This document shows, piece after piece, positions 17,724-48,735 of a stretch of 58,149 nucleotides of DNA. The first letter of the stretch is position 1. The number at the start of each line of letters is the position of its first letter. Where the stretch lies: NCBI GenBank assembly GCA_027307335.1, contig DAHUXD010000002.1, positions 1 to 58,149 on the forward strand, written 5' to 3'. This stretch comes from Acidobacteriota bacterium (GTDB lineage: Bacteria; Acidobacteriota; Thermoanaerobaculia; UBA5066; Gp7-AA6). The position numbers and the translations under genes were made by a program. The notes below the pieces were generated by a model. That model was not told the origin of the DNA. It searched no databases and saw only the letters and a list, made by a program, of their open reading frames with translations.

Positions 17724-17902
17724 ACCGGATGCCGCGCTCGGGGTCAGGTGTTCGGGTTTTCGGAGCGACGACGCGAGTGCGATCGAACCGCGGCGGATAA
17801 AGAGCTCCGAAAACCGAACACCTGACCCCATCGAAGCGCGCAGGCCCGACTCGCGGGCTGCTGCTTCCCGTCAGCGACTCGAAGCCCGCGGGACTTGCGG
17901 GC
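17724..17902. repeat. REP-like hairpin repeat, copy A, interrupted
   Basis: The flanks 17724-17737 and 17830-17902 match the uninterrupted copy at 48647-48735 at about 94 %. The right part can fold into a long stem (GGCCCGAC...GCGGGCT with AGCCCGCG...GCGGGCC) around a loop containing CCCGTCAGCGACTCG. A 90-bp inverted-repeat element sits between the flanks. The element lies between two convergent genes, as the second copy does, which fits a role as a two-way transcription stop. Confidence 0.75.
17740..17829. mobile_element. 90-bp MITE/REP-type inverted-repeat element
   Basis: The terminal arms, 17740-17766 starting GGGGTCAGGTGTTCGG and 17804-17829 ending CACCTGACCCC, are reverse complements of 26-27 nt with one extra G in the left arm. 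The 37-nt middle codes for nothing. The same repeat without this segment exists at 48.66 kb, so this looks like an inserted non-autonomous element. The GGGGTCAGG ends recall REP-associated or IS200-like transposon repeats; no transposase is present here. Confidence 0.65.
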
Positions 17903-17983
17903 CAGTCCTCCGAGCTTCGTCACCGGGCCCGCGCTCTCGTCGACTCGCCGGCTCTCGTCGGCGGATGAGCCGCGCGGTCCGTG

Positions 17984-48609: not shown

Positions 48610-48646
48610 CCGCCCGCCCGTTAACCGGATGCCGTGCTGTCCATCA

Positions 48647-48735
48647 ACCGGATGCCGTGCATCGAAGCGCGCAGGCCCGACTCGCGGGCTGCTGCTTTCC
48701 GTCAGTGACTCGAAGCGCCGCGGGACTCGCGGGCC
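48647..48735. repeat. REP-like hairpin repeat, copy B, uninterrupted
   Basis: This is the intact counterpart of the repeat at 17.72-17.90 kb. ACCGGATGCCGTGC is followed directly by ATCGAAGCGCGCAGG, without the 90-bp element. The preceding bases 48623-48660 contain the AACCGGATGCCGTGC unit twice, 22 nt apart. Hairpin arms run from about 48674 to 48735. It sits between the ends of rel and rpmB, again a convergent gap. Confidence 0.75.

Follow-up and report, generated by a model that had tools for sequence, protein, structure and literature searches.

Genes for Y1 transposases flanked by terminal inverted repeats (TIRs) with the consensus GGGGWSAS, and TIR families arranged in dimers or clusters, were described by Di Nocera et al. 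(2013, PMC3733652), who reported three TIR-flanked Y1 genes in Koribacter versatilis; TIRtrons have been described in K. versatilis and in Stenotrophomonas. Most of these TIR-associated tyrosine transposases (TIRYTs) were placed in TnpAREP subclass 2.1, or RAYT group 1 (Quentin et al. 2018, PMC6006769); a C-terminal HTH domain (Bac_DnaA_C, HTH_23, HTH_28) is a criterion for TIRYT proteins of subclass 2.1. The locus described here resembles these systems in its GGGGWSAS-type ends, in its inverted dimers and in the presence, in the same genome, of a Y1 gene of ~320-340 aa flanked by such ends. It differs in two respects: the hairpin is enclosed in a larger, fixed-flank composite, and the inner end sequence of this hairpin, TTTTCGGAGC, is matched by none of the transposase genes of the assembled genome (96.5% complete). 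With REPINs it shares the ~90-bp inverted doublet (89-92 bp here) forming one long hairpin, the non-autonomous and extragenic character and the link to RAYTs, but GTAG/GTGG-tagged REP palindromes are absent, the ends being GGGGTCAGG, and there are six full copies as against hundreds in Pseudomonas. Bacterial MITEs are comparable in size (70-300 bp), in their TIRs of 15-30 bp and in their lack of coding capacity; they differ in that no target duplication was found here and the candidate partner is a Y1 rather than a DDE enzyme. Among the papers listed for the bare motif GGGGTCAGG, none dealt with bacterial repeats.

The window, the whole stretch of 58,149 nucleotides analyzed, is contig C5 of genome G000, an assembly of 4.37 Mb in 65 contigs. 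The 90-bp inverted repeat reported by the first-pass annotation was recovered with exactly the same coordinates and sequences. Its arms of 27 and 26 nt enclose a loop of 37 nt and end in GGGGTCAGG...CCTGACCCC. Folded as RNA, the repeat has a minimum free energy of -58.9 kcal/mol, which corresponds to z = -8.0 relative to dinucleotide-shuffled sequences. At a threshold of 15-nt or longer arms within 80 bp, the window contains no other inverted repeat, and none at all occurred in 20 control sequences simulated from the window by a first-order Markov model. An outer stem GCGCT...AGCGC around the hairpin, seen in the DNA fold, was rejected, as its left side varies among the copies and its right side shows no matching changes. 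The features of the window are listed in Table 1.

Table 1. Features of the composite repeat and of its hairpin-less copy B in the window.
Feature	Positions	Strand	Basis and remarks
Left box of composite, ACCGGATGCCGCGCTC	17724..17739	+	Form of CCGGATGCCGnnCTC before the hairpin in 5/6 full copies and in the truncated C44 copy; lacking in C20
Hairpin element, 90 bp, GGGGTCAGG-ended inverted repeat, REPIN/TIR-dimer-like	17740..17829	+	Fold z, six full copies, unique in window
Left arm	17740..17766	+	27 nt; sequence, fold
Right arm	17804..17829	+	26 nt; sequence, fold
Right-hand part of composite	17830..17912	+	73-84 bp (~75 bp), common to all full copies
Copy B, duplicated left box	48623..48660	+	AACCGGATGCCGTGC twice, TGTCCATC between
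Copy B, right-hand part without hairpin	48661..48735	+	Probable 92-bp loss (TC + hairpin) at the 48660/48661 junction

The genome holds six full copies of the hairpin, one each on contigs C5, C20, C31 and C51 and two on C44, which supports the proposed non-autonomous, REPIN- or MITE-like nature of this multi-copy element. The copies measure 89-92 bp, the other five are 74-85% identical to that of the window, and stem energies range from -45.6 to -58.9 kcal/mol. Both ends of all six carry GGGGTCAG, which fits GGGGWSAS. At C44:80770-81013 (L005, L007) a full composite is succeeded, after 5 bp, by a truncated seventh copy, an inverted version of the left end of that composite; the second full C44 composite lies 3 kb from the first in the opposite orientation.

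A CCGGATGCCG box, with small variations, stands to the left of five of the six full hairpins; in the C20 copy, similarity begins exactly at GGGG, two bases past the stop codon of a gene. The right-hand part, which holds the two related ~28-nt units ATCGAAGCGCGCAGGCCCGACTCGCGGGC and ACTCGAAGCCCGCGGGACTTGCGGGCC, directly adjoins all six hairpins and occurs without a hairpin at copy B only; a pattern search for the right-hand unit as an independent repeat gave matches only inside composites and in copy B. Pairwise distances between the hairpins correlate with those between the adjoining right-hand parts (Mantel r = 0.80; exact test over all 720 permutations, p = 0.004), a result from only six copies that rests mainly on one deep split (C31 and C51); for the loop alone the correlation is weaker (r = 0.33). 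Variants common to C31 and C51 occur in the hairpin as well as in the right-hand part, where the pairing of these two copies has 95% bootstrap support. Since the right flank is present in all six copies and the box in five, and since hairpin and flank diverged jointly, the hairpin appears to be a fixed component of a ~180-bp composite repeat, which spread as a whole. In a control set of 20 same-class elements of the relative G035 plus three further GGGGTCAGG elements of G000, the only flanks in common were those of one pair of G035 neighbours and a single 28-bp match; hairpins of this class are therefore usually solitary, the composite being the unit here.

The composite was not found among 60 related genomes, which include no congener of G000, except for two short 24-nt matches, one of them a separate GGGGTCAGG hairpin (L039) and the other due to chance (L040). 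A single match to the inner motif in an Acidobacteria MAG, obtained in a search of genome contigs, lacks GGGGTCAGG and was likewise dismissed as chance. Neither the inner motif nor the right-hand part had a match among viral contigs.

Two Y1_Tnp genes were identified in the genome. The gene on contig C16 (L027) is intact and encodes a REP-associated tyrosine transposase of 336 aa, with scores of 98 bits for NF047646 (NCBIfam REP_Tyr_transpos, cut-off 80) and 45 for Y1_Tnp (cut-off 23). Its translation, read by eye, contains the HuH motif NHYH and YVVLNP, corresponding to the class 2 Y---NP signature; the C-terminal extension is ~180 aa long, and Pfam at E values up to 1 returned only Y1_Tnp. 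The gene is flanked on both sides by GGGGTCAGGTCTCTGAAA... ends, namely GGGGTCAGGTCTCTGAAAGTGTGAC together with GGGGTCAGGTCTCTGAAAATGTGAC, the latter present as two inverted copies. Miniature hairpins at C28:68505 and C49:25591 carry these ends over about 25 nt, with 14-16 of 16 matches at positions 10-25. For the composite ends, agreement with the ends of the gene reaches no further than the outer 14 nt (C20, C44); inside they have diverged, positions 10-25 giving 4-7 of 16 matches, which is background. A RAYT/Y1 or other transposase gene flanked by the same ends had been suggested as something to look for; a gene with related ends does exist, but beyond the outer 14 nt the ends differ. For this reason the C16 enzyme may not act on the composite ends. 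The comparison suggests that the enzyme proper to the composite is absent or unassembled, or that the composite is recognized by its outer motif only. In the published descriptions, agreement of element ends with the transposase ends beyond the common motif does not define the class; the composite is therefore still assigned to the TIRYT-associated class, with the C16 gene as a candidate partner only. The second Y1 gene (154 aa; L026 1375-1950, G000 C60) is flanked by GTAGGGGCGG... palindromes and looks like a classical REPtron of the GTAG type, which sets it in another class than the C16 gene.

Pairs of GGGGTCAGG and CCTGACCCC spaced to give 79-96 bp were found in 8 of 61 genomes, the reversed-pattern control giving 0. 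The hairpins of the relatives have the same ends and unrelated loops, and similar Y1 genes across the relatives often have GGGGTCAGG-type ends. Most miniature hairpins of G001, G013, G035 and G044 are closest to the transposase ends of their own genome, which supports a hairpin system that would be transposase-specific.

In G035, G041 and G044 many hairpins of the class have a short perfect palindrome centered exactly on them; one example reads CGCCGATT, 89 bp, AATCGGCG. Palindromes of at least 4 nt flank 12 of 36 deduplicated elements, against about 0.5 expected when flanks are permuted; the loci are L102, L106, L107, L121, L124, L128 and L133 (G035), L134 and L135 (G041) and L151 (G044). None was seen in G000. 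At one orthologous site (L105 in G035, L160 in G041) the hairpin lies within an apparent coding sequence of two congeners and the flanking palindrome shows compensating changes, CGAAT/ATTCG versus CGTAT/ATACG, while a third congener (L157, G050) has neither hairpin nor palindrome. This one clear case suggests outward growth or correction of the stem once the hairpin has inserted, for instance through template switching, rather than a palindromic target.

The first-pass annotation had read the hairpin as an insertion into a dispersed repeat, with copy B at 48.66 kb as the preserved empty site. The repeat pair concerned (17829-17885 and 48660-48716) extends over 57 nt with 96% identity, and at copy B the box is indeed joined directly to the right-hand part. 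Only 3 of 74 positions in the right part of copy B deviate from the consensus, so that it could sit near the root; the copies nearest to it are C5 and C20. A weaker form of the same idea is that one insertion made the composite, which then spread, copy B deriving from the pre-insertion repeat. Against insertion stand the presence of the hairpin in all six other full copies and, for six independent events, the joint divergence of hairpin and flank. The left box of copy B is moreover duplicated, which the first-pass annotation had overlooked: AACCGGATGCCGTGC starts at 48623 and again at 48646, 23 nt apart with 8 nt between (a 23-nt partial tandem duplication), so that copy B is no clean one-to-one counterpart. 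In the tree of the right-hand part, midpoint rooting places copy B among the hairpin-bearing copies, B and C5 grouping with only 44% support. No outgroup was found and the root is not fixed; a single 92-bp loss on the branch of B and a root on that branch require one event each. As the box is duplicated, and as root-to-tip distances become unequal under a root at B, copy B has probably lost its hairpin. This is a matter of judgement and not of calculation, as is the lesser standing given to a copy B that never had one, which is rather unlikely; the two forms of insertion taken together are rated no higher. That the hairpin lies inside a repeat thus holds, but the same composite surrounds all six copies and the 90-bp segment looks ancestral. 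Copy B does lack the hairpin, yet it is the sole exception, rearranged and nested under midpoint rooting. The opposite history, with the segment ancestral and copy B a deletion, had been named as the outcome that would speak against the annotation, and with six of six hairpins in the composite the copies largely point to it.

The genomic setting bears on a different proposal, that the composite is not mobile DNA and that selection between convergent genes conserves it as a structured RNA or as an element of 3' ends, such as an mRNA stabilizer or a bidirectional terminator. According to uncurated gene calls, based on GC by codon position and on inspection by eye, the C5, C20 and C51 copies and copy B lie between convergent genes, and C31 probably does too; one C44 copy adjoins a tRNA gene. 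This placement of most copies and the strong stem in all six would suit such an element. It would be hard to reconcile with the multiple copies in unrelated places, with the lack of an Rfam match and with relatives whose loops are unrelated while the ends are the same; no intrinsic-terminator-like site or T-run follows the hairpin. Placement at 3' ends is the usual setting of REPs, and an effect of the hairpin on RNA ends, which is possible, is compatible with mobility, as in REPs. A purely structural role is quite improbable. Even less credence is given to an IS or MITE whose transposase would belong to an unrelated family, of DDE type: a non-coding element of ~90 bp with terminal inverted repeats would fit, but no target-site duplication is evident by eye at the boundaries of hairpin or composite, the ends match the Y1 TIR consensus, and similar ends flank Y1 genes across the relatives. 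An integron attC site was rejected, since no RYYYAAC/GTTRRRY pair is visible in the composite. Somewhat better placed than these, though improbable, is a larger composite transposon bounded by one GGGGTCAGG end, in which a TIRYT may mobilize the hairpin together with the fixed, one-sided right flank of ~75 bp; the C20 copy, which starts exactly at GGGG without the left box, fits such a boundary.

The reading preferred here, from sequence comparison, is that the 90-bp hairpin is a non-autonomous element of single-strand transposition of the TIRYT class, fused into a composite and later lost at copy B; its probability is put at about 0.72. The element, a variable loop bracketed by a pair of inverted GGGGTCAGG ends, would be REPIN- or TIR-dimer-like and of the TIRYT (RAYT group 1, TnpAREP subclass 2.1) class. 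Fused to a left flank of ~16 bp and a right flank of ~75 bp, this hairpin would have become the ~180-bp composite, which would then have reached six or more sites, the majority of them between convergent genes. The single-stranded hairpin would form at the replication fork, where a HuH/Y1 transposase, possibly that of C16, would recognize the paired GGGGTCAGG ends and cut and rejoin there. At copy B the composite would later have lost 92 bp (TC and hairpin), by palindrome deletion or by transposase-mediated excision; excision of REPINs has been documented in population reads (Bertels and Rainey 2011, PMC3116915).

The locus represents a further case of known TIRYT-type hairpins; what sets it apart is the fixed-flank composite, together with a matching enzyme that seems to be missing. 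It adds a family of TIRYT-type hairpins and corrects a tempting reading of copy B as an empty site. Six composites and one hairpin-less copy in one genome provide a small natural experiment on the clean loss of a hairpin. With hairpin ends that are specific to a genome set against the transposase ends of that genome, the link between the two would be testable in vitro.
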